Shown here: in pieces, positions 22,089-39,302 of the stretch
How positions within the stretch are numbered: position 1 is the stretch's first letter
Layout of the letters: every line of letters starts with the position of its first letter
Translations under genes and position numbers: made by a program
NCBI GenBank assembly: GCA_030529505.1
Contig: JAUMWT010000011.1
Location: 1 to 54,660, forward strand
DNA: 54,660 nucleotides
Source of the DNA: Allobrachymonas sp.
GTDB lineage: Bacteria > Pseudomonadota > Gammaproteobacteria > Burkholderiales > Burkholderiaceae_C
Direction: 5' to 3'
Notes under the pieces: generated by a model
What the model was told of the DNA's origin: nothing
Seen by the model: only the letters and a program-made list of their open reading frames with translations
The model's database searches: none

Positions 22089-22868
22089 TCACAGATTGTG
22101 CAAATCCACCAGCAGTTGCCGCGTGCGCAGGCGCGCGACGCCGCAATGGTAATACAGCAGTTCGCGCAACTGGGGCTTGAGGGCCAGCACCACCTCGCGC
22201 TGCGCCAGGCACATCGACAGCAGCGCGCGCAAGGGCGCGGCATCGTCCATGGCGGCTTGCAGCGCCAGCCAGTGCTGGCCGCTCAGCGTGCGCGCTGGCG
22301 GGGCATGGGCGGGCTCAGATGCCAAGGCAACGGCCAGCAGGCCGCTTTCAGGCGTGAGCGCATAGGCCGCATCGGCTTGCAGGGGCTGGTAGCTCAAGGT
22401 CTGCACATCCAGCGCGGGCAGCAGGCCCGCCTCGCGCAGCAGCACCAGTTCAAAGGCGCGCAGCACGGCTTGCAGGTTTTCACCCTGCCCGGCGTGCGTA
22501 GCCAGCCAGGCCACGGTGGCGGCATAGGCATCGAACAGGGCCGGGTGCGGATCATCGCGCGCGAGCAAGCGAATCATCAGTTCGTTGATGTAGTAACCCG
22601 CCAGCAAGGCATCGCCCGACGGCATGACGTGCCCACCCATCCACTCTGCGCTTTTGAGGGTACGAATTTCCGCATCGCCCGCATAGCTCAGGTGCAGGGG
22701 CTGCAAGGGCAACAACACGGGCCGAAAACCCGAGCTGGGCCGCTTGGCCCCTTTGGCAACCAACGCCGTGCGGCCATGATGGCGCGTGAGCACTTCCAGA
22801 ATCAGGCTGCTCTCGCTCCAGTCGTAGCTGTGCAGCACATAGGCTGGCTCGTGGGTGATGCGCTTCAT
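22089..22868 (-). CDS. recO: DNA repair protein RecO
   Basis: RecO, 259 residues, anneals single strands and works with RecR to load RecA in gap repair. The N-terminal OB-fold begins [20 protein letters not shown], followed by [15 protein letters not shown], typical of the family, then LKSAEWMG and [13 protein letters not shown] at the start of the helical C-domain. No zinc-finger cysteine quartet is visible, as in other proteobacterial RecO. In many relatives rnc-era lies directly upstream; here the upstream neighbour is a small 4-TM protein gene instead. Confidence 0.92.
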
Positions 22869-22882
22869 GTGTTGGCAAGTCG

Positions 22883-22914
22883 AAAAAATACGGGGCCCGC
22901 AATGGCAGGCCCCG
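22883..22914 (-). terminator. Intrinsic terminator between the 4-TM gene and recO
   Basis: On the minus strand CGGGGCC pairs with GGCCCCG around a 10-base loop and is followed by TATTTTTTCG. It separates the upstream 4-TM gene from recO, so recO needs its own promoter or read-through. Confidence 0.8.
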
Positions 22915-22940
22915 CATGCTACACAAAGTACTGCGCCTTA

Positions 22941-23291
22941 TCAGCGAAAAACTTGCTGCATGGCCGAATCGATCAGCATGCTCAAGAAGGAATAGATGAT
23001 GGCCCCAGCCAAGGCCCACCAAAAGCTGTTGACCACGAAGCCCGACAGGATACTGCCCGCCAGCCGGAACATCCAGGCGTTGATGACCAGCAAAAACAAT
23101 CCCAGCGTAATGACCGTTACGGGCAGAGTCAGCACGATCAGCACCGGCCGCACCAGGCTGTTGAGCAAAGCGATGATGGCCGCAGCCAGCAAGGCCGAGC
23201 CAAAACTCTTGACCGCAATGCCCGGCAGCAAATACGCCAGAAACATCAAGGCTACAGCCGACAAACTCCACTTGACCACTATTTGCATCAT
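22941..23291 (-). CDS. Small four-TM membrane protein (YvlD / 'phage holin family' type)
   Basis: Protein of 116 residues with four predicted membrane segments: LSAVALMFLAYLLPGIAV, ALLAAAIIALLNSLV, PVTVITLGLFLLVINAWM and a last one in WWALAGAIIYSFLSML. The motif LLNSLVRPVLIVLTLPVTV plus TLGLFLLVINAWMF is typical of the PF04020 family, often labelled phage holin family or YvlD, whose function is not settled. The start at 23291 or the adjacent ATG at 23288 has AAAGGAG about 11 bases upstream. It is a chromosomal housekeeping-type gene here, with no phage context. Confidence 0.85.
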   Translation of the reverse strand: MMQIVVKWSLSAVALMFLAYLLPGIAVKSFGSALLAAAIIALLNSLVRPVLIVLTLPVTVITLGLFLLVINAWMFRLAGSILSGFVVNSFWWALAGAIIYSFLSMLIDSAMQQVFR

Positions 23292-23706
23292 GGCAATGTC
23301 TACTCCTTTTTGATATTCATGCGCCCCAGTCGAACGAATTGTTGAGCGGGACGTGCAGCCAGCAATCGCTGCAGGGCCGTTTGGGGGCAGCCCACACGGC
23401 CGCGCATCCCAGCCACCAGGCCAAACGCAGCGCAGATGATGGCAAGGGGCCAACTGCACCGCATCAGTGTGCGCCACAAACATGCGCTGTGCAGGCGAAG
23501 CCGCCGTGCCGCTTTTCTGCCTGGCAATTTACCCCCTACACCCCGTTGAATCGGCCCAATCCACGGCTTCAACCTTCCGTCAATTAGGCCGCGTTTTGCA
23601 AAATTCAATATGACAGGCCAACATCTTCGGCCTCTTTCTGGATGCCTTTTGCCTGCTCCCGGCTCCCGGCTTGGATCCACCCCTTGCAGAGCCAGCCCCT
23701 TCTACA
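23292..23706. other. Intergenic region between divergent genes
   Basis: About 415 bases between the 4-TM gene (minus) and ubiA (plus), where promoters for both are expected. TACAAT at 23703-23708 overlaps the ubiA start region and looks like a -10 box without an obvious -35. No gene was found. Confidence 0.4.
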
Positions 23707-24648
23707 ATGCCCGCCATGTCTGCTGCCCGCACACCGCCTCATCGGCCGCCCTGCTCATCCTTCTTGCCCCGCCTGCGCCTGTATCTGGACTTGATCCGTT
23801 GGGACCGGCCCGCCGGTTGGCTCTTGCTGCTGTGGCCCACGCTGGCAGCGCTGTGGCTGGCGGCAGGCGGCTTTCCGGGCTGGCATTTGCTGGCCGTGTT
23901 CACGCTGGGCACCATCCTCATGCGCAGCGCGGGCTGCTGTATTAACGATGTGGCCGACCGCGAGTTTGACCGCCACGTCAAACGCACAGCCAAGCGCCCT
24001 GTGACCAGCGGCCGCATCAGCGTGAAAGAGGCACTGGCCGTAGGCGCAGCCTTGGCTTTTGTTGCATTCTTGCTGGTGCTCAGCACCAACCGGATCACCG
24101 TGCTGTATGCAGTTCCGGCCCTGCTCATCAGCGTGGCCTACCCCTACGCCAAGCGATTTGTTTCCATTCCGCAAGCGGTACTCGGCTTGGCTTTCAGCTG
24201 GGGCATACCGATGGCCTACGCCGCCGTGCAAGCGCGCGTGCCCGCCCAGGCGCTGTGGCTGCTGCTGGGCAATCTGTTCTGGGTGCTGGCGTACGACACC
24301 GAGTACGCCATGGTCGATCGCGACGATGATTTGAGAATCGGCATCAAAACCTCGGCCATTGCCTTTGGCCGCTGGGACGTGGCCGCCGTGGCCATCTGCT
24401 ACGCGCTGTACGTGGGCATTTGGTGGGGCCTGCTTTGGCTGGCTGCGCCCCCCAGCCCCTGGGGGCGCGCTGCCTGGACGGCAGGACTGCTGGCCGTGCT
24501 GGCGCAAGTAGCCTGGCACCTGTGGCTGATTCACAAGCGCGAACGCGCAGCCTGCTTCACCGCCTTCAAGCACAACCACTGGATCGGCTTGGCCGCCCTG
24601 CTCACAACGATCGCGATCACGATTGCACGGCATGCGCCTGCCAACTGA
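23707..24648 (+). CDS. ubiA: 4-hydroxybenzoate octaprenyltransferase
   Basis: UbiA, 313 residues, an inner-membrane prenyltransferase that attaches the polyprenyl chain to 4-hydroxybenzoate in ubiquinone synthesis. Both Asp-rich diphosphate-binding motifs are present: [19 protein letters not shown] near residue 89 and [20 protein letters not shown] near residue 199. About eight membrane segments can be traced. The start is either ATG 23707 or ATG 23716, three codons apart. The Asp motifs, length and [15 protein letters not shown] stretch fit UbiA better than related MenA or heme O synthases. Confidence 0.94.
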
Positions 24649-24801
24649 ACAAGGCGTGCTGTTTGAGCAGCTATCCAGCGCAGGCAAAAGCTGCGGAGCG
24701 AATGGGCGCAGGGCGGATTCAAGCTGGCCCAAGGCCCTGGCTTCTTCATCACCCCACTTGTTTGCACAGCAACAGGGGCAGCAGGCTCGCTCATCCTGCC
24801 C

Positions 24802-25545
24802 CTATTGCACACCCAATCGCAAATGTTTTTTCGCACGCAACATCATGCTGGCAAAGGGGGTGCCTGCGTGCATGGGGTAGACCTCGCAAACAAAGCCAAT
24901 GCCTTCAAGCAGCGCCCGCCACTGCACCACGGTGCGGCAGTACATGGCTACCGATGCGTGCCCGCGCACTTTGAAAACCAGCGCATCCACCCAATTGCTG
25001 AAGCGAAACGGCAAGCCGCCTGCCTTGTCGCCCACGCGCAGCAGCAGCGTGCCACCATCGACCAGGCAAGCGTACACGCGCGACAGCACTTGCTCTTGCG
25101 CAGCGTAGGGAATGTAGTGCAGCACGTCCAGAATCGTGACGATGTCACTTTCGGCAAATTCCGTGCGGGCAATGTCGGCTTGCTCGACCCGTGCACGATC
25201 GGGGTAGGCCGCCAAGGCAGCGCGGGCGCGTTCCACATCACGCGGCATCAGTTCCAGCCCATGCACACGGCAGCCCACTGGGGGCGGCTGCCACTGCACC
25301 GGCCACGCGCCTGCGGCGGCCACTTCGTCCACGGCCAGCAGCAAGCTCGCCAGCAGACCTTGGCCGCAGCCCAAGTCCAACACGCGCGCGTCGGCTGGTA
25401 TCCAGCCATTGGCGAGGATGCCCGCAAACATCGGATCCATGCTCAATTTGCCACGCGCAAAATGCCAGGCAAAGCGCCCCGCCGCCCGATAGGGTTGGGT
25501 GGCTGCAGCGAGCAAGGGCGCGGGCAAGGTGGGACGTGACGACAT
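24802..25545 (-). CDS. Class I SAM-dependent methyltransferase, substrate unknown
   Basis: Protein of 247 residues with a Rossmann-type methyltransferase core: motif I VLDLGCGQGLLASLLL near residue 55, an acidic end of strand 2 in VHGLELMPRDVERAR, and ILDVLHYIP followed by LVDGGTLLLRVGD after strand 4. The N-terminal 40 residues (AAGRFAWHFARGKLSMDPMF) are not part of the core and may bind the substrate. The specific reaction cannot be told from the sequence. It converges with ubiA, so a role in quinone methylation is tempting, but it does not resemble UbiE or UbiG in its motifs. Confidence 0.8.
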   Translation of the reverse strand: MSSRPTLPAPLLAAATQPYRAAGRFAWHFARGKLSMDPMFAGILANGWIPADARVLDLGCGQGLLASLLLAVDEVAAAGAWPVQWQPPPVGCRVHGLELMPRDVERARAALAAYPDRARVEQADIARTEFAESDIVTILDVLHYIPYAAQEQVLSRVYACLVDGGTLLLRVGDKAGGLPFRFSNWVDALVFKVRGHASVAMYCRTVVQWRALLEGIGFVCEVYPMHAGTPFASMMLRAKKHLRLGVQ

Positions 25546-25916
25546 AAGCGATACAAACTAGAAACGAGCTGGAAAGAGCAAATGCAAAAAAAGCGCCCGC
25601 TGTGGCAGGCGCAATTTCTGGGATGATAGCGGCATCTTTTTCGGGGCCCGTACGGCCCTTACGCCTAGGTCAGTTATTTATGAGCTTGGCACGCGGTGAT
25701 CCAATAGAGATTGAAATAGAGGGCAAGGTTCGTCTCCCATCCACAGGGCGTCAGCTGCTTGAATAGCCGCTGCCCGATCGCCTGCGAACACCCAGCACGG
25801 CCTGCAATGCACTCGTCAACTTTTGGCCGCTGCATGTACTGATCGAGCCATCATCCCTCTATCATCGCACCCCTTACCGCCCCTATTTCATGTTCTTGTG
25901 CCATTCGAGTTTTGCC
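25546..25916. other. Intergenic region with possible structured RNA
   Basis: About 370 bases between the methyltransferase gene (minus) and mltB (plus). GATGATAG-GG-AT at 25622-25635 can pair with AT-CC-CTATCATC at 25853-25866, closing a region of about 245 bases, and a minus-strand terminator lies immediately left of it. This could be a non-coding RNA read leftward; no Rfam family was recognised. Confidence 0.3.
25586..25612 (-). terminator. Intrinsic terminator reading leftward, with no known gene upstream
   Basis: On the minus strand GCGCC-T-GC and GC-G-GGCGC pair around CACA, followed by seven T residues. It lies upstream of the methyltransferase start, so it must end a transcript that begins to its right, between 25613 and 25916 or inside mltB. 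Confidence 0.65.
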
Positions 25917-27152
25917 ATGCGTTTTTCCATCCGATCCACCGCCCTGGCCTGCCTGTTTACCTTGGCTGCGGCTTCCGGCCAGGCGCAAGAAGCGCCCCCC
26001 TCCTTAGACCAGGCTGCTTTCGAGTACTGCCTGAGCAGCCTGCGCAGCAGCCCGGCCTTTGCCCACATCAGCCATCACACCTGGCAGCAGCACGTAGCTG
26101 GCCTCACGCCCGACGCCAGCGTATTGCCCTTGCTGAACAAGCAGCCCGAGTTCAGCCTGCCCGCATGGGATTACCTGGCCGTGCTCGTTGACCCGGAGCG
26201 CGTGGCCGACGGGCGCGCCGCCTACCAGCAATGGCTGCCCGTGCTGCGCCAAATCCAGCAACGCTATGGCGTGGAGCCCGCCGTGGTGCTGGGCGTGTGG
26301 GGGGTGGAAAGCAACTTCGGCCGCATCACCGGCGGGCGGCCCCTGCTGCAATCGCTGGGCACACTTTCGTGCTTTGGGCGGCGGCAAACCTACTTCCGCA
26401 CCGAATTTGCCAGCGCCTTGCGCATCGTGCAAGAAGGCAGCATCAGCGCCGACAAGCTCAAGGGATCGTGGGCCGGCGCCTTTGGCCAAACCCAATTCAT
26501 GCCCAGCACCTTTTTGCGCACCGCAGTGGATTTTGACGGCGACGGCCGGCGCGATTTGATCGACAACGTGCCCGATGCACTCGCCTCCACCGCCAACTTT
26601 TTGCGCAAGGCAGGCTATGTGGCGGGCCAACCCTGGGGCTACGAAGTGAAGCTGCCCGCAGGCTTTGACGCCAGCCAGGCCGGCCGCCGCAAACGTCGCA
26701 GCGTGGATGCCTGGGCAGCACAAGGCGTGACCCTGCCCAACGGACAGCCCCTGCCCGGCAGCCCCGCGAGCCTGGGACTGCTGCTGCCCGCAGGCCCGCG
26801 CGGCCCGGCTTTTCTCGTCGGCAAAAACTTCGACACCTTCTACAGCTACAACGCCAGCGAAAACTACGCACTGGCCATTGCCCACCTGTCGAACCTGATC
26901 GTGAGCGGCAGCAAGCATGTCGGCTTTGCCACCCCCTGGCCGACGGACGACCCGGGCCTGTCACGCGCCGAAAACCGCGAACTGCAAACCCTGCTGCTGG
27001 CCCGCGGTCACGACATCGGCCAACCCGACGGCCTGATCGGCGCCAAAACCCGCGCCGCCATCCGCACCGAACAGGCTCGGCTGAACATGCCGGTGAATGG
27101 CCGCGGCGGGCAAAAGTTGCTGCGTGCGCTGCGGGGGCAAAGTGGGCGGTAA
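25917..27152 (+). CDS. mltB: Lytic murein transglycosylase, MltB type (GH103)
   Basis: MltB-family lytic transglycosylase, 411 residues. A signal peptide (about 1-24, MRFSIRSTALACLFTLAAAS) carries it to the periplasm; no lipobox is seen, so it would be soluble. The catalytic Glu is in GVWGVESNFGRITGG (Glu131), and GSWAGAFGQTQFMPSTFL and VDFDGDGRRDLID are typical GH103 motifs. The C-terminal 60 residues (LSRAENRELQTLLLARGHDI) form a PG_binding_1 domain. The ATG at 25917 is chosen because it gives a compact signal peptide; an upstream in-frame ATG at 25890 is less likely. It is the left neighbour of the CRISPR locus. Confidence 0.93.
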   Translation: MRFSIRSTALACLFTLAAASGQAQEAPPSLDQAAFEYCLSSLRSSPAFAHISHHTWQQHVAGLTPDASVLPLLNKQPEFSLPAWDYLAVLVDPERVADGRAAYQQWLPVLRQIQQRYGVEPAVVLGVWGVESNFGRITGGRPLLQSLGTLSCFGRRQTYFRTEFASALRIVQEGSISADKLKGSWAGAFGQTQFMPSTFLRTAVDFDGDGRRDLIDNVPDALASTANFLRKAGYVAGQPWGYEVKLPAGFDASQAGRRKRRSVDAWAAQGVTLPNGQPLPGSPASLGLLLPAGPRGPAFLVGKNFDTFYSYNASENYALAIAHLSNLIVSGSKHVGFATPWPTDDPGLSRAENRELQTLLLARGHDIGQPDGLIGAKTRAAIRTEQARLNMPVNGRGGQKLLRALRGQSGR

Positions 27153-27200
27153 ACGCTCTACTTTCCATTGATGCGTGATGCCTCCTCACCAGCATCACTC

Positions 27201-27311
27201 AAAAAGCGAAAGCCGGGATCCCTTGCAGGTTACCCGGCTTTCCATTTGGTGCATCTAGCTTTAAAGCAATCAGCTTGTTAGCGGCTAGAGCTCATTTCCC
27301 AGTGCTCTGAG
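27201..27311 (-). ncRNA. tracrRNA of the type II-C CRISPR-Cas system
   Basis: The minus strand reads an anti-repeat beginning CAGAGCACTGGGAAATGAG and ending CTCTAGCCGCTAAC, almost identical to the plus-strand CRISPR repeat, so it pairs with crRNA made from the minus strand. Next comes a short nexus-like hairpin AAGC-TGATT-GCTT, then an intrinsic terminator in which GAAAGCCGGG pairs with CCCGGCTTTC followed by GCTTTTTG (27201-27242). The total is about 110 nt. GCACTGnGAAATGAG is shared with the Neisseria-type tracrRNA. Its position upstream of cas9 and opposite to it is common in type II-C loci. The 5' end is estimated from the -10 box at 27319-27324. Confidence 0.9.
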
Positions 27312-27318
27312 TGCGCTC

Positions 27319-27324
27319 ATTGTA
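27319..27324 (-). promoter_or_regulatory. Possible -10 box of the tracrRNA promoter
   Basis: TACAAT on the minus strand, about 8-10 bases upstream of the anti-repeat. No good -35 sits at 17 bases, so the assignment is tentative. Confidence 0.4.
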
Positions 27325-27446
27325 CTCAATTCGTCATGGACTTACTCACTTTTTGCAAAAATTTTCTCATTTCCTCACAACAAGCTATCATGTGAACCAT
27401 TTTGAAATTTTTGCAACAAGATTTAACCAAGGCAAGAGTCAAAAGA

Positions 27447-30400
27447 ATGAGTACCGTCATCAACACCCCAGCACCTTACCGCTTGGCACTTGATCTGGGC
27501 ACAACGTCTCTGGGCTGGGCCGTTTTGCGCCTGAATGCGCACAACGAGCCCACAGCCATCATCAAAGCAGGCGTGCGCATCTTCAGCGATGGCCGCAATC
27601 CCAAGGACGGCTCTTCGCTGGCCGTGACCCGCCGCGCCGCACGCGCCATGCGCCGCCGGCGCGATCGCCTGCTCAAGCGCAAGGCGCGCATGCTGGACAA
27701 GCTGATCGCGCACGGTTTCTTTCCTCAGGATGAGGCCGCGCGCAAAGCGCTCGAATCGCTCAATCCCTACCAGTTGCGCGCCAAGGGCTTGAATCAGGCT
27801 TTGACACCCGGCGAATTCGCCCGCGCGCTGTTCCACATCAACCAACGCCGGGGCTTCAAGAGCAACCGCAAGACCGACAAGAAAGACAACGACAGCGGTG
27901 CTCTCAAAACCGCCATCGGCCAGCTGCGCCAGCAACTGCAAAACGAAAACGCCCGCACGGTAGGCGAATGGTTGTGGCAGCGCCTGCAAGCTGGCCAGGG
28001 CACACGCGCCCGCTACCGCGAAACGCGCATCACCACCGAAGAGGGAAAGAGCAAGATCGACAAGAGCTACGACCTCTACGTTGATCGCCAGATGGTGGCG
28101 GACGAGTTCGATGCGCTATGGGCTGCGCAGGCGGGCTTCAATCCTGCCCTGTTTCATGAGCAGGCGCGCGCCGAGTTGCGCGACACCCTGTTGCACCAAC
28201 GCCCGTTGCGCCCAGTCAAGCCGGGGCGCTGCACCTTGCTGCCCGAGGAAGAGCGCGCCCCGCTGGCGCTACCCAGCACCCAACGCTTCCGCATCCTGCA
28301 AGAAGTGAATCACCTGCGCTTGCCTCAGTCCGGCATGCGCGAAGAACCGCTGACGCTCGCACAGCGCGATGCCATCGTGAACATGCTGGAAAGCAGCGGC
28401 AAGGTCACGTTCAAGGCCATGCGCAAAAAGCTCAAGCTGGGCGATACGGTGCAATTCAACCTGGAAGACACCAAGCGCAGCGAGCTAAAGGGCAACGCCA
28501 CCACGGCGGCGCTGTCGAAAAAAGAGCTGTTCGGCGCCGCATGGCAAGGCTTTGACGAAAGCTTGCAAGACGACATCGTGCTGCGCCTGGTCACTGAAGA
28601 GAGCGAAGCCGCCTTGGTGCAATGGCTGATGGAAAACACTGGCGTGGACGAAGCGCGCGCCACAGCCATTGCCAATGCTGGCCTGCCTGAAGGCTACGGC
28701 AGCCTCAGCCGCAAGGCACTGGCGTGCATCGTGCCCACGCTGCGGGCCGAGGTCATCACCTACGACAAGGCCGTGCAGGCCGCTGGCTTTGCCCACCACA
28801 GCGACCTGTGCTTTGGCTTTGAGCATGACGATGACGAGGTGACGCTAATTGGCGAGCGCATCATTGCATCCACGGGGGAAATCAAGCCGGTACTTGCCTT
28901 CAAGCAACTGCCTTACTACGGCCGTGCCCTGCAACGCCACGTGGCCTTTGGCAGCGGCAATCCCAAAGACCCGGAAGAAAAACGCTACGGCAAAATCGCC
29001 AACCCCACGGTACACATCGGCCTGAACCAGGTGCGCAAAGTCGCCAATGCGTTGGTTCGCCGCTATGGCCGACCAACTGAAATCGTGGTGGAGTTGGCGC
29101 GTGACTTGAAGCAAAGCCGCGAGCAAAAGCTGGAAACGCAACGCAAACAAGCCGACAACCAAAAGCGCAATGCACGCATCCGTGCAGAAATCGTGCCCAT
29201 GCTGGGCATCAGCGAAGATCGGGTAAAGCACGCCGACATCCAGAAATGGATCTTGTGGGAAGAACTGAGCTTTGACGCGGCGGACCGCCGCTGCCCCTAC
29301 AGCGGCGTACAGATCAGCGCGGCCATGCTGTTATCCGAGCAAGTGGAGATTGAGCACATCCTGCCCTTCTCGCAAACGCTGGATGACAGCCTGAACAACA
29401 AAACCGTTTCCATGCGGCAAGCCAACCGTGTCAAAGGCAACCGCACACCTTGGCAGGCGCGGCAGGACTTCGAGGCACAGGGGTGGTCGTACGAAGGCAT
29501 GCTGCAACGCGCCGAACGCATGCCCCGCGCCAAACGCTACCGCTTCGCGCCCGATGGTTACGAACGCTGGCTCAAAGAAGACCAGGATTTTCTGGCCCGC
29601 GCGCTGAACGACACGCGCTATCTCTCGCGCGTGGCCAAAACCTATTTGCAACTGCTGTGCCCGCAGGGCACACGGGTGATACCCGGGCAAATGACGGCTC
29701 TGCTGCGCGGCAAATTCGGCTTGAATGATGTGCTCGGCCTGAATGGCGAAAAAAACCGCAACGACCACCGCCACCATGCCGTGGATGCCTGCGTGATTGG
29801 CGTTACCGATCAAGGCCTGTTGCAACGCTTTGCGCAAGCCAGCGCCACAGCACGCCAACAAGGTCTGGAAAAACTCGTGGACGACATGCCCCTGCCCTGG
29901 GAAAGCTACCGTGCGCATGTAGAGCGCGCCGTACAAAACATCTGGGTCAGCCACAAACCCGATCATGGGCATGAGGGAGAAATGTTTGATGCGACGATCT
30001 ATAACGCATCCGGTCAAAGCCGGATGGCTGCGAAAGACAGGAAAGTTCTACCGTTCCATGCACGATCGGAACATGCACACTTGAGTCGTTATCGTGACAA
30101 AAACAACGCTCCCAAGCCCTACAAAGGCTTGCTGAGCAATAGCAACTACTGTATTGAAATCACACGCAACGAAAAGCGCGACTGGGAAGGAAAAGTTATT
30201 TCAACCTTTGATGCCTACAAGATTGAAAGAGAGCTGCTACGTGCCTATAGAAATAAGCATGGAAAAAATGCCAGCTCACTTCCCTTGCTTGATCTTATCG
30301 GCGATCACGAATCCTCCGACGGCAAACCTTTGGTCATGCGTTTATGCAAGGGAGACTGCATAGCCATTGGTCAAGGAAAAGAAAGAGAAGTGCTGCAAGT

Positions 30401-30647
30401 TCTGAAAATCAACAGTTCCGGCTCAGTCACCTTCATCAAACCCAACGAAACCAATATCAGCGCACGCTATCTGGCAAAACTTGCAGCGCAAAAAGACCAG
30501 AAGGCCGGCAAGTTCTTTGATGAGGCTGCATTGAACGACGTGTTTTTTCAAAAGGCTTTTTCCGCAGGGAGTTTGCTGGAGGCCAAAGCCCGCAGCGTCA
30601 CCATCTCGCCCATCGGCGAACTGCGCGACCCAGGCTTCAAGGGTTAA
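27447..30647 (+). CDS. cas9: CRISPR-associated endonuclease Cas9, type II-C
   Basis: RNA-guided DNA endonuclease of 1066 residues, about the size of NmeCas9 (1082) and typical for II-C. RuvC-I is LALDLGTTSLGW (Asp16); the Arg-rich bridge helix RRAARAMRRRRDRLLKRKAR is near residues 60-80; RuvC-II is IVVELARDL (Glu549); the HNH motif is VEIEHILPFSQTLDDS, with His637 and Asn660 aligned to His588 and Asn611 of NmeCas9; RuvC-III is DHRHHAVDAC (His777, Asp780). The last 200 or so residues are the wedge/PAM-interacting region. All catalytic positions are filled, with Glu636 where NmeCas9 has Asp587. The ATG at 27447 (MSTVINTPAPYRLAL) is chosen over an in-frame ATG at 27402. cas1 starts 12 bases after the stop. 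Confidence 0.97.
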   Translation: MSTVINTPAPYRLALDLGTTSLGWAVLRLNAHNEPTAIIKAGVRIFSDGRNPKDGSSLAVTRRAARAMRRRRDRLLKRKARMLDKLIAHGFFPQDEAARKALESLNPYQLRAKGLNQALTPGEFARALFHINQRRGFKSNRKTDKKDNDSGALKTAIGQLRQQLQNENARTVGEWLWQRLQAGQGTRARYRETRITTEEGKSKIDKSYDLYVDRQMVADEFDALWAAQAGFNPALFHEQARAELRDTLLHQRPLRPVKPGRCTLLPEEERAPLALPSTQRFRILQEVNHLRLPQSGMREEPLTLAQRDAIVNMLESSGKVTFKAMRKKLKLGDTVQFNLEDTKRSELKGNATTAALSKKELFGAAWQGFDESLQDDIVLRLVTEESEAALVQWLMENTGVDEARATAIANAGLPEGYGSLSRKALACIVPTLRAEVITYDKAVQAAGFAHHSDLCFGFEHDDDEVTLIGERIIASTGEIKPVLAFKQLPYYGRALQRHVAFGSGNPKDPEEKRYGKIANPTVHIGLNQVRKVANALVRRYGRPTEIVVELARDLKQSREQKLETQRKQADNQKRNARIRAEIVPMLGISEDRVKHADIQKWILWEELSFDAADRRCPYSGVQISAAMLLSEQVEIEHILPFSQTLDDSLNNKTVSMRQANRVKGNRTPWQARQDFEAQGWSYEGMLQRAERMPRAKRYRFAPDGYERWLKEDQDFLARALNDTRYLSRVAKTYLQLLCPQGTRVIPGQMTALLRGKFGLNDVLGLNGEKNRNDHRHHAVDACVIGVTDQGLLQRFAQASATARQQGLEKLVDDMPLPWESYRAHVERAVQNIWVSHKPDHGHEGEMFDATIYNASGQSRMAAKDRKVLPFHARSEHAHLSRYRDKNNAPKPYKGLLSNSNYCIEITRNEKRDWEGKVISTFDAYKIERELLRAYRNKHGKNASSLPLLDLIGDHESSDGKPLVMRLCKGDCIAIGQGKEREVLQVLKINSSGSVTFIKPNETNISARYLAKLAAQKDQKAGKFFDEAALNDVFFQKAFSAGSLLEAKARSVTISPIGELRDPGFKG

Positions 30648-30659
30648 ACAGGGCGCAGC

Positions 30660-31589
30660 ATGATCGGCCGCATTGTCGAAATCGCAGACGACCGTCGGCA
30701 TCTCTTCGTCAATCGCGGCTTCATGGTGGTGCGCGATACCGAAGGCGAGCGCAAGGAACTGGGCCAGGTGCCGCTGGACGACATCGCCGCCCTCATCGCC
30801 AATGCCCACGGCATCAGCTACACCAACAACCTGCTGGTGGCCCTGGCCGAGCGCGGCGCGCCCTTCGTGCTGTGCGCGGCCAATCACAATGCCGTGGGCA
30901 TGCTGCTGACGCTGGACGGCCACCACGTGCAGGCCAAGCGCATCGAGGCGCAAATCGCCGCCAGCCTGCCCACGCACAAACGGCTGTGGGCGGCCATCGT
31001 CAAATCCAAGCTGGAGCAGCAAGCCGCCGCGCTGGAAGCTGCAGGCGCGCCCACCGCGCCCTTGACTGCATTGGTGCGCAAGGTCAAAAGCGGTGATCCG
31101 GAAAACGTCGAAGGCCAAGGCGCGCGGCGCTACTGGGGCCTGCTGTTCGGCAAGGACTTCCGCCGCGACCAGAACGCCAGCGGCCTCAACGCCCTGCTCA
31201 ACTACGGCTACACCATCCTGCGCTCGGCCACCGCCCGCGCCGTGGTGGCTGCCGGCCTGCATCCCAGCATTGGCCTGCACCACAGCAACGACGGCAATGC
31301 CATGCGCTTGGTCGATGATTTGATGGAACCCTTTCGCCCCATCATCGATTTGAAGGTGTGGCAACTGCAACGCGCGGGCGAAAGCCACATCACGCCCGAT
31401 ACCAAACGTGCCCTTGTACGCACACTCTACGACGATATGCAAAGCAGCGCAGGTGCCACGCCCGTCATGGTTTGCATGCAAAAACTGGCTGTTTCGCTGG
31501 CGCAGGTCTACTTGGGGGAACGCGAGAAACTGGACCTGCCCCTGCCGGGCCTGCCTTTGGCACTGCTCAACGGCTTCGATAGCAATTAG
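30660..31589 (+). CDS. cas1: CRISPR-associated endonuclease Cas1 (type II)
   Basis: Cas1 integrase, 309 residues, forms the Cas1-Cas2 complex that inserts new spacers. Metal ligands by family pattern are Glu151 (ENVEGQGARRYW), His208 (PSIGLHHSN) and Glu223 next to Asp220 (LVDDLMEPFRP). The N-terminal beta domain begins GRIVEIADDRRHLFVNRGF. It is 12 bases downstream of cas9 and 19 bases upstream of cas2, so the three genes form one operon. No csn2 or cas4 is present, which defines subtype II-C. Confidence 0.97.
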   Translation: MIGRIVEIADDRRHLFVNRGFMVVRDTEGERKELGQVPLDDIAALIANAHGISYTNNLLVALAERGAPFVLCAANHNAVGMLLTLDGHHVQAKRIEAQIAASLPTHKRLWAAIVKSKLEQQAAALEAAGAPTAPLTALVRKVKSGDPENVEGQGARRYWGLLFGKDFRRDQNASGLNALLNYGYTILRSATARAVVAAGLHPSIGLHHSNDGNAMRLVDDLMEPFRPIIDLKVWQLQRAGESHITPDTKRALVRTLYDDMQSSAGATPVMVCMQKLAVSLAQVYLGEREKLDLPLPGLPLALLNGFDSN

Positions 31590-31608
31590 ACAGTGTTGGG
31601 CATACGCC

Positions 31609-31935
31609 ATGCTTTCGGGATACAGACTCATGTGGATGCTGGTGATGTTCGACCTGCCCGTTCTGGAAAAAGCCGAGCGCAAAGCCGCTACCGACTTTCG
31701 CAAAGCCCTGCTCGACATGGGGTTCGAGATGAGCCAACTCAGCGTCTACATGCGCTTTTGCACCAGCCAAACTCAGCTGGACACCTATGCCAAATACGTT
31801 GAGGCTGTGCTGCCACCCGGTGGCAAAGTGAACGTGATGCAGTTCACCGACAAGCAGTACGAACGCATCATCACTTTCCACGGCAAGGCCAAGCAACCCG
31901 CCCTGAAAACACCCGATCAGTTCGATCTTTTCTGA
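31609..31935 (+). CDS. cas2: CRISPR-associated protein Cas2
   Basis: Cas2, 108 residues from ATG 31609 (MLSGYRLMWMLVMFDLPV); a start seven codons later (31630) is possible and neither has a strong ribosome binding site. The ferredoxin-like fold begins with the strand LVMFDLPV, with Asp15 at the conserved position, and continues with YMRFC and GKVNVMQFTDKQYERI. It acts as the structural partner of Cas1 in spacer integration. It is the last gene of cas9-cas1-cas2 and is followed after 70 bases by the first repeat. Confidence 0.95.
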   Translation: MLSGYRLMWMLVMFDLPVLEKAERKAATDFRKALLDMGFEMSQLSVYMRFCTSQTQLDTYAKYVEAVLPPGGKVNVMQFTDKQYERIITFHGKAKQPALKTPDQFDLF

Positions 31936-31965
31936 GAAAAATCATGCTTTTTCTTGAGCCCAGAA

Positions 31966-31994
31966 ACGGAAAACCCCTTGAAAATCAAGGGGTT
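31966..31994 (-). terminator. Intrinsic terminator at the cas2 end of the CRISPR array
   Basis: AACCCCTTGA pairs perfectly with TCAAGGGGTT (10 bp, 3-base loop, 31972-31994). On the minus strand the stem is followed by TTTTCC, on the plus strand by GCCGCG, so it suits transcripts coming leftward out of the array rather than the cas operon. Confidence 0.65.
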
Positions 31995-32005
31995 GCCGCG
32001 ATCGG

Positions 32006-35000
32006 ATTTTAGATCACTGGGAAATGAGCTCTAGCCGGAACTGGCGTTCAACTTCCCCGCCTCATCGAGCGATTTTAGATCACTGGGAAATGAGCTCTAG
32101 CCGGAACGCTCCACATCTTGCGGTGCCTCGCCCATATATTTTAGATCACTGGGAAATGAGCTCTAGCCGGAACCAGCACGTCCAACCCCTTCGGCAAGAA
32201 CGTATTTTAGATCACTGGGAAATGAGCTCTAGCCGGAACGCCGTGATTGCTCTGATGATAATAAATGTGATTTTAGATCACTGGGAAATGAGCTCTAGCC
32301 GGAACCCGTCTGCGGCCATCGTTTCAATCAGGGCCATTTTAGATCACTGGGAAATGAGCTCTAGCCGGAACCGCCAGCGCAGCTTTAACCAGCGCCGCGC
32401 CATTTTAGATCACTGGGAAATGAGCTCTAGCCGGAACCGCGGCATACCTGCGCCGCATCCGTTCCCCATTTTAGATCACTGGGAAATGAGCTCTAGCCGG
32501 AACATCGGGGGCTGAATGACCTGCGCCCCTCGCATTTTAGATCACTGGGAAATGAGCTCTAGCCGGAACTCGGCGTCCAGCCCTTTGACCACGCTGCCCA
32601 TTTTAGATCACTGGGAAATGAGCTCTAGCCGGAACCGCGGGCTGCATCCAGATGCGGGCCGGTGTATTTTAGATCACTGGGAAATGAGCTCTAGCCGGAA
32701 CACGAAGCCCCGCTGGTTGATGCTTCTTTTGATTTTAGATCACTGGGAAATGAGCTCTAGCCGGAACCGGATGGCCTCTTTCTGCGCCGTGATCGCGATT
32801 TTAGATCACTGGGAAATGAGCTCTAGCCGGAACCGATGTTGTGTGCGCTTGTCCATATTTAGCATTTTAGATCACTGGGAAATGAGCTCTAGCCGGAACG
32901 GCTGCGTGCCCAGGTCGATCAGCTTGAAATTTTAGATCACTGGGAAATGAGCTCTAGCCGGAACCTACGTCGTCGGTTACGAGCGGCAGAAGCGATTTTA
33001 GATCACTGGGAAATGAGCTCTAGCCGGAACCGAGAGTTGCTTTCATAACAGTTCCTTTCTATTTTAGATCACTGGGAAATGAGCTCTAGCCGGAACCTTA
33101 ACGCCACGCGCTCCATCTTTGGATTAATTTTAGATCACTGGGAAATGAGCTCTAGCCGGAACCGAGATTGGGGTCTTGAAATGTGGTCTGGAATTTTAGA
33201 TCACTGGGAAATGAGCTCTAGCCGGAACTCTGCATGATTATACCTGTTCAGGTAATTTATTTTAGATCACTGGGAAATGAGCTCTAGCCGGAACTCGCGT
33301 TTTTGAGCATGCGACCGTGGCTATATTTTAGATCACTGGGAAATGAGCTCTAGCCGGAACTTCTGGTGTTGGCTTGTTTCTGGCTGATTCATTTTAGATC
33401 ACTGGGAAATGAGCTCTAGCCGGAACGCCGCATCGAAGGCATCGGCCATGCCGCGCATTTTAGATCACTGGGAAATGAGCTCTAGCCGGAACGATCCCCG
33501 TCGGGTTGGCTGCCCGCACGAAATTTTAGATCACTGGGAAATGAGCTCTAGCCGGAACTTATTCGAATACCATTCGTCCATTTTTTTCATTTTAGATCAC
33601 TGGGAAATGAGCTCTAGCCGGAACCCCCTTGCTCGCTTCCAGCTCCCCGGCCAAATTTTAGATCACTGGGAAATGAGCTCTAGCCGGAACACGTTGCGGC
33701 GCTTGTTGTGGTCAATCACGATTTTAGATCACTGGGAAATGAGCTCTAGCCGGAACGGTTCAGGCGCACGCCTGCGGCCATGTTGGATTTTAGATCACTG
33801 GGAAATGAGCTCTAGCCGGAACGGCAGGGTTTAGGCATTCTGTTTGGTGCAGATTTTAGATCACTGGGAAATGAGCTCTAGCCGGAACTGATGTTTTGTT
33901 TATCGACTTAAAGGAGTCATTTTAGATCACTGGGAAATGAGCTCTAGCCGGAACCAGCCTTGCTGCTGGGCGTAGGTTTGTCGTATTTTAGATCACTGGG
34001 AAATGAGCTCTAGCCGGAACCGAGCTTCACGGCAATCGCTCCGGCCATGATATTTTAGATCACTGGGAAATGAGCTCTAGCCGGAACTAAACCGGCGGCC
34101 CTTTATAGGCAGCCGGAATTTTAGATCACTGGGAAATGAGCTCTAGCCGGAACCAGGCGATGGATGACCTGAGCGTCAACAGCATTTTAGATCACTGGGA
34201 AATGAGCTCTAGCCGGAACAGGGTTGTGAGGCAGGTTCACCCGGTAAATATTTTAGATCACTGGGAAATGAGCTCTAGCCGGAACTTGCGCCTGCAACAC
34301 GGCCACTGCGGCCTGATTTTAGATCACTGGGAAATGAGCTCTAGCCGGAACCCCCAGAGCAAGCAAGGTATCTGCATCGCGATTTTAGATCACTGGGAAA
34401 TGAGCTCTAGCCGGAACCTTGGGCCATGAAAGCCGTTGGCCCGTTAGATTTTAGATCACTGGGAAATGAGCTCTAGCCGGAACGCGTGGCAGTTCGGCCA
34501 ACGCCTGGGCGCAATTTTAGATCACTGGGAAATGAGCTCTAGCCGGAACTGAGGTCTGCGGCGCATTGTGGGGCGCAAAATTTTAGATCACTGGGAAATG
34601 AGCTCTAGCCGGAACAGCGTCAAGATGTTCCATTGCCTATGAATGATTTTAGATCACTGGGAAATGAGCTCTAGCCGGAACCTTGGGCCATGAAAGCCGT
34701 TGGCCCGTTAGATTTTAGATCACTGGGAAATGAGCTCTAGCCGGAACCCTCAAACGCGGCAAACGCCGCGCGCACCTATTTTAGATCACTGGGAAATGAG
34801 CTCTAGCCGGAACTATCGACCAAAGGAGTCCATATGTCCACCGATTTTAGATCACTGGGAAATGAGCTCTAGCCGGAACAAAATGGCGCAGGGATACCAA
34901 TTTGGCACAATTTTAGATCACTGGGAAATGAGCTCTAGCCGGAACTAGCCATTTTGCAAAAACTTCCTTCGCGCCATTTTAGATCACTGGGAAATGAGCT

Positions 35001-38000
35001 CTAGCCGGAACCCTCGTCGTAATCATCGGCGGTCTGCTTGTATTTTAGATCACTGGGAAATGAGCTCTAGCCGGAACACGGCCTGCCCGCGGGGTGACGC
35101 AGGCCCGATTTTAGATCACTGGGAAATGAGCTCTAGCCGGAACGGATACCCCTTTGCCATTGGCGAGGCCGTGATTTTAGATCACTGGGAAATGAGCTCT
35201 AGCCGGAACAGGGCGCTTGGACATGTGCAGGGTGAAGAAATTTTAGATCACTGGGAAATGAGCTCTAGCCGGAACGCAAAGCGCCCCATATAAGGAACCT
35301 GAGCCATTTTAGATCACTGGGAAATGAGCTCTAGCCGGAACCGTAGCGACTCCAATTGTCTCGGAACCAATATTTTAGATCACTGGGAAATGAGCTCTAG
35401 CCGGAACAACGGAGAAAGCCATGACTGATAAGCACCTATTTTAGATCACTGGGAAATGAGCTCTAGCCGGAACAGGTGAAGGTGCATACTTGACCCGCCT
35501 AGATTTTAGATCACTGGGAAATGAGCTCTAGCCGGAACCTGCGGCCTGCCTGGCCTACCTGGGGGCTGATTTTAGATCACTGGGAAATGAGCTCTAGCCG
35601 GAACGTAGATTTGCGCTATGACTTACATCCCAGAATTTTAGATCACTGGGAAATGAGCTCTAGCCGGAACCCCAGTTGGCGGGTGGTGAACCCGGCGGGG
35701 ATTTTAGATCACTGGGAAATGAGCTCTAGCCGGAACCATGTCATTAATATTGCCAGTAAAGGTTTTATTTTAGATCACTGGGAAATGAGCTCTAGCCGGA
35801 ACATGTATTTTCAACGCTAGGACAAAGCTTTAATTTTAGATCACTGGGAAATGAGCTCTAGCCGGAACGGGGTTGACGCGCACGGGCACACCGGCCAAAT
35901 TTTAGATCACTGGGAAATGAGCTCTAGCCGGAACGATCGCTTGTAGGCTGTGTGCAGCGCAGGGATTTTAGATCACTGGGAAATGAGCTCTAGCCGGAAC
36001 GACACGCGCGAGGATGCAGCGGGGCGGGTGATTTTAGATCACTGGGAAATGAGCTCTAGCCGGAACCTCAACGGGATCACCAGCCAGGCGGCCTTCATTT
36101 TAGATCACTGGGAAATGAGCTCTAGCCGGAACCGGTTAGAGCAAACCAAGGAACTGATAGCCATTTTAGATCACTGGGAAATGAGCTCTAGCCGGAACCA
36201 ATCGCTGCACGGGCTTGTTCCACATACTATTTTAGATCACTGGGAAATGAGCTCTAGCCGGAACCGTGGTCGGGTCGTACACGTCCAGCGACACATTTTA
36301 GATCACTGGGAAATGAGCTCTAGCCGGAACTACTGGGGCGGTTCTCTTGTCGAGGGCTTGGATTTTAGATCACTGGGAAATGAGCTCTAGCCGGAACGCG
36401 GCCCGAGTGGGAGGCCCGTAAGGGCCTATTTTAGATCACTGGGAAATGAGCTCTAGCCGGAACGATGAAGTGGATCGGATGGAAGAAAACCTCATTTTAG
36501 ATCACTGGGAAATGAGCTCTAGCCGGAACCCGAGGCGTTGAACATATATTCGCCTGTGGATTTTAGATCACTGGGAAATGAGCTCTAGCCGGAACAGCCT
36601 TTTGTCGATAAACAGCGCCACGGACATTTTAGATCACTGGGAAATGAGCTCTAGCCGGAACGGGGTTGCTACTGGGGTGGTATTTCGTAGCATTTTAGAT
36701 CACTGGGAAATGAGCTCTAGCCGGAACACATCATCAAGGCATCCTTTGCCGCATCATATTTTAGATCACTGGGAAATGAGCTCTAGCCGGAACAGCACGA
36801 GAACCCATATCCGCCGCTGAAATATTTTAGATCACTGGGAAATGAGCTCTAGCCGGAACGAGCTTGCCATGTCTATTGCTGGTATTACTATTTTAGATCA
36901 CTGGGAAATGAGCTCTAGCCGGAACGTGGATGAGGTTGGATTTGAACCAACGTATATTTTAGATCACTGGGAAATGAGCTCTAGCCGGAACTGCGGCTGC
37001 TGGGAATCAGTTGCACGTAGAATTTTAGATCACTGGGAAATGAGCTCTAGCCGGAACGTGCACAACCATGACACGAGCGACGGCGATATTTTAGATCACT
37101 GGGAAATGAGCTCTAGCCGGAACTGCTCATCACCCAGCATCCGCAGTTGATTGATTTTAGATCACTGGGAAATGAGCTCTAGCCGGAACAGAAAATGCGA
37201 AGAAAATAAATGCTCTGCAATTTTAGATCACTGGGAAATGAGCTCTAGCCGGAACTGCGCATTCATGTACGAACGCAAAACCGCAATTTTAGATCACTGG
37301 GAAATGAGCTCTAGCCGGAACTTGGGCATTTTCGTGCTCAAAAACATTATAATTTTAGATCACTGGGAAATGAGCTCTAGCCGGAACCCTCTTGCACTGC
37401 GGTTATAGGTTCTTTCGATTTTAGATCACTGGGAAATGAGCTCTAGCCGGAACAGTTCAAGGATGCCAGCGTCATTGATGAGCATTTTAGATCACTGGGA
37501 AATGAGCTCTAGCCGGAACCCCCGCCTGCCCACTGCACTGCGCGGCTTTATTTTAGATCACTGGGAAATGAGCTCTAGCCGGAACTATCGACCAAAGGAG
37601 TCCATATGTCCACAGATTTTAAATCACTGGGAAATGAGCTCTAGCCGGAACACCGTCAAGATGTTCCATTGCCTATGAATGATTTTAGATCACTGGGAAA
37701 TGAGCTCTAGCCGGAACACGGCCTGCCCGCGGGGTGGTGCAGGCCCGATTTTAGATCACTGGGAAATGAGCTCTAGCCGGAACTGCTTGCAGTTTTGAAA
37801 TGCAAGCAGAGCGATTTTAGATCACTGGGAAATGAGCTCTAGCCGGAACGTATGAGCCAAGGTTGGCCTTTGCATCGCGATTTTAGATCACTGGGAAATG
37901 AGCTCTAGCCGGAACCGCTGGGGCATGCCATCGTTGATGCCCAGGATTTTAGATCACTGGGAAATGAGCTCTAGCCGGAACCGCTGCTTGTCTGATGTGC

Positions 38001-39302
38001 TGATTGGGCTGATTTTAGATCACTGGGAAATGAGCTCTAGCCGGAACGTGTGGCAGTCCGGCCAGCGCCTGGGCGCAATTTTAGATCACTGGGAAATGAG
38101 CTCTAGCCGGAACCACGCAAGCCAGGCCCAACATGTGCCCGATATTTTAGATCACTGGGAAATGAGCTCTAGCCGGAACTCTGGGGCTTTTGAATAACGT
38201 TGAGAAAGTATTTTAGATCACTGGGAAATGAGCTCTAGCCGGAACTCAGTCTGACAGCAATTGCAAACCGTGTGGATTTTAGATCACTGGGAAATGAGCT
38301 CTAGCCGGAACAATCTAAAGAAGCGCAAAGTTTCGACACCGATTTTAGATCACTGGGAAATGAGCTCTAGCCGGAACTCGGCGATGGGTAAAGATTACGT
38401 AGGCGCGATTTTAGATCACTGGGAAATGAGCTCTAGCCGGAACTGATCAAATTTCCTTAAAAAGTTTCGACAAATTTTAGATCACTGGGAAATGAGCTCT
38501 AGCCGGAACCAAATTTTTCATCAATAACTTTAGCGATATATTTTAGATCACTGGGAAATGAGCTCTAGCCGGAACCCCACCTTCTTCCTTCTTCAGCATG
38601 AACAAATTTTAGATCACTGGGAAATGAGCTCTAGCCGGAACCATACTGGCATACTCAGCAAATGCCGCATCATTTTAGATCACTGGGAAATGAGCTCTAG
38701 CCGGAACGTAGGGTCATCAGGTGTGACAACCACACTAATTTTAGATCACTGGGAAATGAGCTCTAGCCGGAACAAAAACTTATTGATAGTCACCACAGCA
38801 TCAATTTTAGATCACTGGGAAATGAGCTCTAGCCGGAACGAGTGTGCGACGCAATGGCGCACCTCTGCGATTTTAGATCACTGGGAAATGAGCTCTAGCC
38901 GGAACAAAACGCGTTGACAAGCACAACGAGTTCACATTTTAGATCACTGGGAAATGAGCTCTAGCCGGAACAGCGACGTGGGGCAAACCTTTCCGGGCTT
39001 GATTTTAGATCACTGGGAAATGAGCTCTAGCCGGAACGTGTGGTTGTTGCCAGCGCCCGCCGCCTTGATTTTAGATCACTGGGAAATGAGCTCTAGCCGG
39101 AACATGAATGCGGCGCACTTTCGCTGCCGGCCAATTTTAGATCACTGGGAAATGAGCTCTAGCCGGAACGCCGTCCTCGTGCTCCACCATCACGTTGGGA
39201 TTTTAGATCACTGGGAAATGAGCTCTAGCCGGAACCACACTCTGAAAAGGATTGATGTGGCCTGCGATTTTAGATCACCAGGAAATGAAATTTATCCGGA
39301 AT
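32006..39302 (-). CRISPR. CRISPR array, 111 repeats and about 110 spacers, type II-C
   Basis: A 36-base repeat (plus strand starts ATTTTAGATCACTGGG and ends GCTCTAGCCGGAAC) recurs every 66 bases from 32006. Spacers are 30 bases, with exceptions of 29 (32900-32928) and 31 (34021-34051 and 39236-39266). One repeat has a G-to-A change at position 7 (37616) and the last (39267-39302) is degenerate with seven changes. The anti-repeat fixes the crRNA sense as the minus strand, with the repeat reading GTTCCGGCTAGAGC at its 5' end and ending GATCTAAAAT. Because 66 is a multiple of three, long open frames repeating ILDHWEMSSSRN occur on the plus strand; they are not genes. Confidence 0.99.
39267..39302. 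repeat. Degenerate terminal CRISPR repeat
   Basis: Same length as the repeat unit but with changes at positions 13, 14, 23, 24, 26, 29 and 36 (for example ACCAGG for ACTGGG). It marks the oldest or non-growing end in most arrays, which places spacer acquisition at the cas2 end. Confidence 0.85.

Follow-up and report, generated by a model that had tools for sequence, protein, structure and literature searches.

The window analysed here, the whole of contig JAUMWT010000011.1 (54,660 nucleotides), belongs to a 2.39-Mb metagenome-assembled genome (MAG) of an Allobrachymonas sp. from the Burkholderiales (assembly GCA_030529505.1; 100 contigs, completeness 83.51%, contamination 4.25%). It carries an ordinary, complete locus of the type II-C CRISPR (clustered regularly interspaced short palindromic repeats)-Cas9 system, which stands out in three respects: its protospacer-adjacent motif (PAM) can be predicted from protospacers in the same MAG, the PAM-interacting part of its Cas9 appears to have been swapped, and most of these protospacers lie on a resident prophage. 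We consider the following overall account likely. The trans-activating CRISPR RNA (tracrRNA), transcribed divergently from cas9, would pair with CRISPR RNAs (crRNAs) that are transcribed from the array on the minus strand, with promoters probably located inside the repeats. Cas9 with this dual RNA would cut DNA where 5'-NARAA-3', or at least NNRAA, flanks the protospacer on its 3' side, and Cas1-Cas2 would insert new spacers, with the cas2 end as the probable site. The C-terminal domain of Cas9, close to that of two relatives and unlike that of the other relatives of its backbone, would set the PAM. Spacers would have been taken repeatedly from one temperate-phage lineage, of which one member sits in a tRNA-Arg(CCT) gene of the same MAG.

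The locus spans positions 27200-39302 of the window, with a divergent tracrRNA gene, cas9, cas1, cas2 and a 111-repeat array:

27200-27318 (ends approximate), minus strand: predicted tracrRNA with anti-repeat, short stem and terminator-like stem plus T run, from the anti-repeat and the fold
27447-30647, plus strand: cas9, type II-C, 1066 amino acids, ATG start, open until TAA; NCBIfam TIGR01865, PADLOC Cas9, catalytic residues
29952-30644, plus strand: C-terminal PAM-interacting part of cas9, about residues 836-1066, from an identity profile and two trees
30660-31589, plus strand: cas1, 309 amino acids; TIGR03639 (cas1_NMENI), 236.8 bits
31609-31935, plus strand: cas2, 108 amino acids; TIGR01573, 64.1 bits; PADLOC Cas2_II
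31936-32005, no strand assigned: interval between cas2 and the array, probable leader end with the newest spacers, from the degenerate repeat at the far end and the II-C literature
32006-39302, minus strand (predicted crRNA strand): CRISPR array, 111 repeats of 36 nt and 110 spacers; the 3' flank signal fits this orientation
37616-37651, minus strand: internal repeat with one substitution, adjoining spacers 85, 86 and 87 (near-identical to 40, 43 and 47)
39267-39302, minus strand: degenerate terminal repeat with seven changes, from repeat comparison

The reading frames of cas9, cas1 and cas2 are all open and run in the same direction, and their products score well above the curated cut-offs of the NCBIfam/Pfam profiles (Cas9, 626 bits against 100; Cas1, 236.8 against 120; Cas2, 64.1 against 24.5), with E = 1e-98 for PADLOC Cas9. 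An alternative TTG start of cas9 at 27402, which would make a protein of 1081 amino acids, was not preferred. Neither csn2 nor cas4 was recognised beside the array when the list of open reading frames (ORFs) was read by eye, a search that did not extend to the rest of the genome, and an Rfam scan of the whole window at gathering cut-offs gave zero matches. An earlier sequence-only reading had claimed a locus with every expected part, a 1066-residue Cas9 without frameshift and a type II-C assignment from the lack of csn2 and cas4, all of which these results bear out. Judged by its genes, the system is presumably active.

Protospacers in the same genome and the predicted PAM

Spacers are counted 1-110 starting at cas2, and all 110 were compared, by ungapped sliding, with 192 kb of the MAG. 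Seven perfect protospacers were found, for spacers 53, 25, 46 and 39 on contig C60, spacers 54 and 38 on contig C80 and spacer 30 on contig C70; three further ones have a single mismatch (spacers 6 and 64 on C60, spacer 91 on C80), so that ten protospacers match with at most one mismatch. Weaker matches belong to spacer 16 (three mismatches, contig C43), spacer 92 (three mismatches, at the site of spacer 38) and spacer 23 (four mismatches, C80). Three sets of shuffled spacers, run over the same 192 kb, gave one match at seven mismatches and zero at six or fewer; on C43, three matches of the real spacers have seven mismatches, and we attributed them to chance. Further self-matches may exist, because the best 2 of 25, 40 of 54 and 40 of 47 candidates were scored in the own-genome searches; the split searches omitted spacers 85 and 86, near-copies of 40 and 43, and six C60 spacers that had already been found.

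The 3' flanks of the ten best sites are strikingly alike, with A at +2 in 8/10, A or G at +3 in 9/10, A at +4 in 9/10 and A at +5 in all ten. Information reaches 2.34 bits at +5, compared with 0.75 bits at the top position of the 5' flank. NARAA follows eight of the ten protospacers against a background frequency of 0.0065 (both strands), and NNRAA follows nine against 0.0269. The flank of spacer 39 (TGAAA) is an exception to NARAA only and fits NNRAA, and the weaker site of spacer 23 (GAAAA) fits the motif; spacer 92 was kept out of the count because it matches the spacer 38 site. Together, these flanks suggest NARAA, or at least NNRAA, as a predicted PAM located 3' of the protospacer. The repeat bases that follow each spacer in the array, GTTCC, are not the motif, hence the array would be spared.

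Several observations weigh against this prediction. The sites are few and nine of the ten lie on one prophage, and the computed P values of the motif (1.5e-16 and 7e-14) are too small because the motif was chosen after seeing the sites. The perfect match of spacer 53 is flanked by GCTCA, the match of spacer 16 in an inovirus-like stretch by CAAAC, and the match of spacer 75 to phage S-BM3 (two mismatches) by CTTGG. Sites with three to five mismatches in other genomes (spacers 67, 92 twice, 47, and 22 twice), which were not used for the PAM, lack NARAA, the nearest being CATAA at the site of spacer 67. Among 19 spacers typed from the related loci L006 and L058, the sole match outside the array belongs to L006, whose Cas9 has a C-terminal part 93.8% identical to that of the window; it is to the strain's own chromosomal rlmM, with the flank GCCAG. 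Since PAMs can differ among II-C systems, sites of other loci were kept out of the motif.

The concentration of sites in one element could also mean that NARAA reflects local A-rich composition or the codon bias of the prophage and is no PAM at all. We regard this as very improbable: the phage stretches have 60.5% G+C, the background frequency of NARAA is low, the 5' flanks carry no such signal, and most sites follow the direction of the genes on C60 but oppose it on C80. Adenine-rich PAMs are described for SmacCas9 (5'-NAAN-3', called type II-A in the abstract of PMC7235249) and for the Cas9 of L. rhamnosus (5'-NGAAA-3', abstract of PMC10541446). With 1066 residues and an adenine-rich PAM predicted for it, this compact Cas9 lends itself directly to testing as a tool.

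The PAM prediction comes from the MAG and owes little to the phage and plasmid databases, which the sequence-only reading had proposed to search. A search of 50,697 phage records gave matches for spacer 75 alone, all three of them to tRNA or tRNA-like sequence, and none of the spacers matched among 72,556 plasmids. That the PAM cannot be read from the window, as had been stated, holds for the window alone; it is the rest of the same MAG that suggests NARAA. Searching the 109 distinct spacers against 399 genomes of the family (best two candidates per genome) gave matches of spacer 75 to tRNA genes and some weak ones, and in the loci fetched from these genomes matches with at most five mismatches were found only for spacers 67, 92, 47 and 22. 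In a second search, with 24 spacers, nothing but spacer 35 matched outside the own array, and only in part (24-25 nt, five genomes). We also gathered 243 viral loci (2.93 Mb) through six phage proteins, five from the prophage and one from C70, two of which had no relatives in these protein searches; the loci held no protospacer with at most five mismatches and one match of spacer 75 at six. Spacer 75 (window 36926-36955) has the sequence of a tRNA's acceptor end and T-arm. Relatives carry tRNA genes that it matches with three to four mismatches, tRNA or tRNA-like sequence in phages BcepSauron and S-BM3 differs from it at two positions, and its own MAG gave no further match; its target may be a phage tRNA or an attachment site. 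At the BcepSauron site the flank reads CAGAA, and its initial CA may belong to the CCA end of the tRNA itself.

The resident prophage and its apparent coexistence with the array

C80 and C60 carry the two ends of one prophage. The following features lie on C80:

24157-24231: tRNA-Arg(CCT), followed by an integrase (phrog_1), an endolysin and tail genes
25693-25938 and 25928-26167 (L285 10693-10935 and 10928-11167): two small genes between integrase and endolysin, without Pfam or PHROG family

The phage part of C60 ends in an excisionase-like gene and the same 16 bases as the end of the tRNA (seen by eye). In G005, a genome of the same genus, the end of tamB, the tRNA-Arg gene and the C60 flank stand side by side, an empty site that, together with the two junctions, joins C80 and C60. 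A shorter match of this kind exists in G006, the G007 sequence stops too soon to be informative, and the tRNA-Arg gene has another location in G001-G004 and G008. Hence, an integrase, a 16-base attachment (att) core at both ends and an empty site in a relative identify an integrated prophage, the middle of which is absent from the recovered sequence. Its genes also include a BstA relative, an Erf-like annealing protein, an SSB, a Gam-like protein, a methyltransferase and a RelB/YafQ pair. C70, with the site of spacer 30, is phage DNA (primosomal protein, NinB) and could not be placed. Inside the prophage on C60, 100 N stand between two identical 55-base stretches (L104 3537-3746), probably a scaffolding artefact.

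Nine protospacers with no or one mismatch lie on the prophage. NNRAA flanks eight and NARAA seven of them; six are perfect, five of these with NNRAA. Known ways to survive self-targeting are repair, mutation of the target or PAM, loss or silencing of cas genes, and anti-CRISPRs, to which self-targeting has previously led (excerpts of PMC6990116). According to excerpts of a study of F. columnare, the few self-targeting II-C spacers there almost always lack the canonical PAM or have it at a shifted distance (PMC8092290), whereas the predicted motif is present at the self-targets described here. Target or PAM loss leaves the five perfect sites with NNRAA unaccounted for, and the cas genes are open; an anti-CRISPR, silence of the system or a mixture of strains remain. 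The coexistence of prophage and array is seen in one MAG.

Numerous self-targets that look intact make a prophage the standard lead to a new anti-CRISPR, and this prophage or another element of the cell may make an unrecognised one that blocks this Cas9 in lysogens, a reading to which we give a little under an even chance. It agrees with the number and quality of the PAM-bearing sites, with intact cas genes, with the presence of both prophage junctions on assembled contigs and with the published precedent. The two small genes on C80 are first anti-CRISPR candidates; for the product of 25693-25938, one phage record contains a distant relative (31%) and the PDB a weak match by sequence (8vd6, 5e-05, residues 49-78). 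Against it, the recovered prophage parts yielded no match to a known anti-CRISPR family when 30 phage ORFs were scanned with PHROGs, 10 with NCBIfam, 10 with PADLOC and 9 with Pfam, libraries whose anti-CRISPR content was not checked, and a PDB sequence search with three phage ORFs gave no anti-CRISPR match. Moreover, MAGs can mix strains. The MAG could be a composite of lysogens that lack these spacers and array-bearing cells that lack the prophage, for which the chances are close to even. Its completeness, contamination and 100 contigs leave scope for this, the near-identical spacer pairs 38/92, 40/85, 43/86 and 47/87 suggest circulating phage variants, and both prophage contigs stop inside the prophage, as expected of an assembly of variants. 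Both junctions, however, come with flanking sequence on their contigs (about 24 kb and 31 kb), and a tamB-tRNA query gave only the occupied site in the MAG among the best 40 of 158 candidates, although binning may drop minor contigs. With array and prophage both in the majority, some cells would also carry both.

It is improbable that the system is simply silent or blocked at the level of the host, by poor expression or defective interference, and the self-targets therefore harmless. Open frames, kept catalytic residues and a tracrRNA argue against this, and spacers with no or one mismatch are spread over array positions 6-91, which points to long-lasting acquisition. More speculatively, the tRNA-Arg prophage of the Brachymonas lineage might carry a new family of type II-C anti-CRISPRs active on NARAA-PAM Cas9, so that lysogens tolerate at least eight PAM-bearing self-targets, and the resulting pressure might have driven the exchange of PAM domains among Comamonadaceae. 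We put this forward as a tentative idea that is rather unlikely to hold in full.

A second, inovirus-like element (named by eye) lies on C43 at about 22300-30600 (L283 2315-10622), beside tRNA-Ser(GCT). It is flanked by two 52-base stretches that are 90% alike and could be att sites. The element is matched by spacer 16 with three mismatches and flank CAAAC, and is perhaps a filamentous phage that escaped.

Cas9 and the exchange of its C-terminal part

One scan of genome contigs yielded 68 related loci, mostly from betaproteobacteria. Three gave short proteins, and we aligned the other 65 full-length Cas9s with that of the window (66 rows). In the columns that we take to be catalytic, as in SpCas9 and Nme1Cas9, the RuvC residues E549, H776/H777 and D780 and the HNH residues H637 and N650/N651 are filled in all 66 rows, and RuvC D16 in 65 with one gap, in agreement with the claim that all catalytic positions are present. 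The residue before the HNH histidine is glutamate (E636) in every row and aspartate in 9ar4 (ThermoCas9), the best-scoring solved chain by sequence.

The nearest Cas9s are those of Allofranklinella schreckenbergeri NML 97-0147 (L058) and 'Lysobacteraceae bacterium' NML07-0707 (L006), both 88% identical overall and 94.7% and 93.8% identical, respectively, over residues 841-1066; their loci differ in having short arrays with other spacers. In Vandammella animalimorsus (L007, L009) and Comamonadaceae OH2545_COT-014 (L008), residues 1-840 are 83-86% identical and Cas1 is 94.8-95.5% identical, but the C-terminal part of Cas9 is only 46-47% identical and represents another PAM-interacting domain. 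The identity profile locates the drop near residue 836. A tree of residues 1-830 groups the window's Cas9 with L058, L006, L007, L008 and L009, and a tree of residues 836-1066 groups it with L058 and L006 only, each with support 1.0; its distance to L007 rises from 0.24 to 1.87 between these trees. Compared at the sequence level, the PAM-interacting part is thus of other origin than in the backbone relatives L007-L009, which amounts to a domain swap. Because the Cas9 bodies and Cas1 are near-identical while the C-terminal domains are exchanged, a simple exchange could assign PAM specificity to one domain.

The nearest Cas1 is that of Vandammella (95.5%) and the nearest Cas2 that of L008 (97.2%), and the flanking genes ubiA, mltB, RRM and dsbD had no match in the stretches of 11 relatives (at most 10 kb per side, some shorter). 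The disagreement between nearest relatives and the unmatched flanks indicate that the locus is a mosaic and that it lies elsewhere in the relatives, as far as these stretches reach. The L006 record is named 'Lysobacteraceae' and its Cas9 is 88% identical to a betaproteobacterial one, which means either a locus that crossed classes or a wrong record name. One NML07-0707 spacer is identical to the strain's own rlmM (named by eye) at L303 1501-1530 (G402:C5:58074-58103), a site without NARAA.

An AlphaFold model of the window's Cas9 is of moderate confidence, which weighs somewhat against the overall account (predicted local distance difference test, 71.9; predicted template modelling score, 0.46; residues 838-900 below 50). 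The model is nearest to the structures of Nme1Cas9, ThermoCas9, HpaCas9 and GeoCas9, which are also among the nearest by sequence, at about 21% identity in the fold alignment. Template modelling scores of 0.25-0.49 and root-mean-square deviations of 12-24 among 50 listed structures mean that the domain arrangement is not matched. The PAMs given in the entry titles of solved Cas9 structures (ATATGATT, NNNNCCA) are unlike NARAA.

A closer described relative is BpsuCas9 of Bordetella pseudohinzii 8-296-03 (L029), 64% identical to the Cas9 of the window. According to excerpts of PMC4624362, its locus has the same divergent tracrRNA, the same order of cas9, cas1, cas2 and array, 36-nt repeats, 29-30-nt spacers and a changed terminal repeat. 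It differs in having 22 repeats and a tentative PAM of 5'-WGR-3', derived from eight protospacers; of the prophages matched, several belong to B. hinzii and not to that genome. The search for relatives, which the sequence-only reading had called for, thus led neither to an inactive closest Cas9 nor to one identical to a studied protein. The titles and abstract beginnings of open-licence literature on Brachymonas CRISPR, Burkholderiales II-C PAMs and Cas9 orthologs/Acidovorax disclosed no study of this Cas9, and those on II-C PAMs, Cas9 orthologs and Brachymonas CRISPR no characterisation of the L058 and L006 proteins. For B. chironomi, the published genome table gives 0 CRISPR repeats (excerpts of PMC4511610); the same strain (DSM 19884) has a cas9 relative, L039, where the repeat finder lists no array.

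tracrRNA, repeats and spacers

Read on the minus strand, the predicted tracrRNA has an anti-repeat at 27281-27304, which matches the repeat core at 20/20 positions, and a G+C stem and T run end near 27200. An anti-repeat, defined as the best match upstream of cas9 at 15/20 positions or more, was looked for in the window and in 53 relatives and is present in 51 of these 54 loci; L022, L027 and L064 have no good match there. On average, 18.4 positions match the own repeat, against 16.0 for the repeats of other loci, and the own repeat is better in 51/51. Hence, the anti-repeat covaries with its own repeat across loci. Joined repeat and tracrRNA fold with z = -7.6, a value into which joining builds the duplex, and the tail alone with z = -2.5. 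Neither a promoter nor a terminator of the tracrRNA came out of a consensus scan, which does not permit a loop as long as the one present.

The array comprises 109 exact 36-nt repeats, one internal copy with a single change and the degenerate terminal copy. The tracrRNA and the side of the flank signal support the prediction that crRNAs run opposite to the cas genes. II-C arrays can have repeat-encoded promoters with transcription towards the leader, opposite to the cas genes (excerpts of PMC8092290 and PMC7038990). Repeats were obtained from 54 relatives, 52 of them of 35-37 nt, and TAnnnT forms the last six bases of the repeat in 51 of these 52; the remaining one has TAGAAT plus one overhanging base. 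This end fits a -10-like box lying largely outside the duplex and may mark promoters inside the repeats; it lacks the extended -10 of the N. meningitidis type described in excerpts of PMC7038990. The degenerate repeat that ends at 39302, read with the II-C literature, probably places the old end there and the leader end on the cas2 side.

Spacers 37 and 41 are identical, which leaves 109 distinct spacers among the 110. The near-identical pairs of 30-nt spacers differ by three changes (38/92), one (40/85 and 43/86) and two (47/87). The evidence on block duplication as the origin of these pairs is divided: 40/43/47 and 85/86/87 stand in the same order, and 38/92 is out of order. At one site of the resident prophage, spacer 38 matches perfectly and spacer 92, farther from cas2, with three mismatches, a single case that agrees with the age order proposed above and with repeated uptake from a phage that drifts over time. 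Mismatches do not rise steadily along the array, as such an order would lead one to expect (spacer 6, one; spacer 23, four; the seven matching spacers between 25 and 54, zero). In L058, the short array is interrupted inside a repeat, at about 14945-15070, by unrelated sequence that resembles the end of a mobile element.

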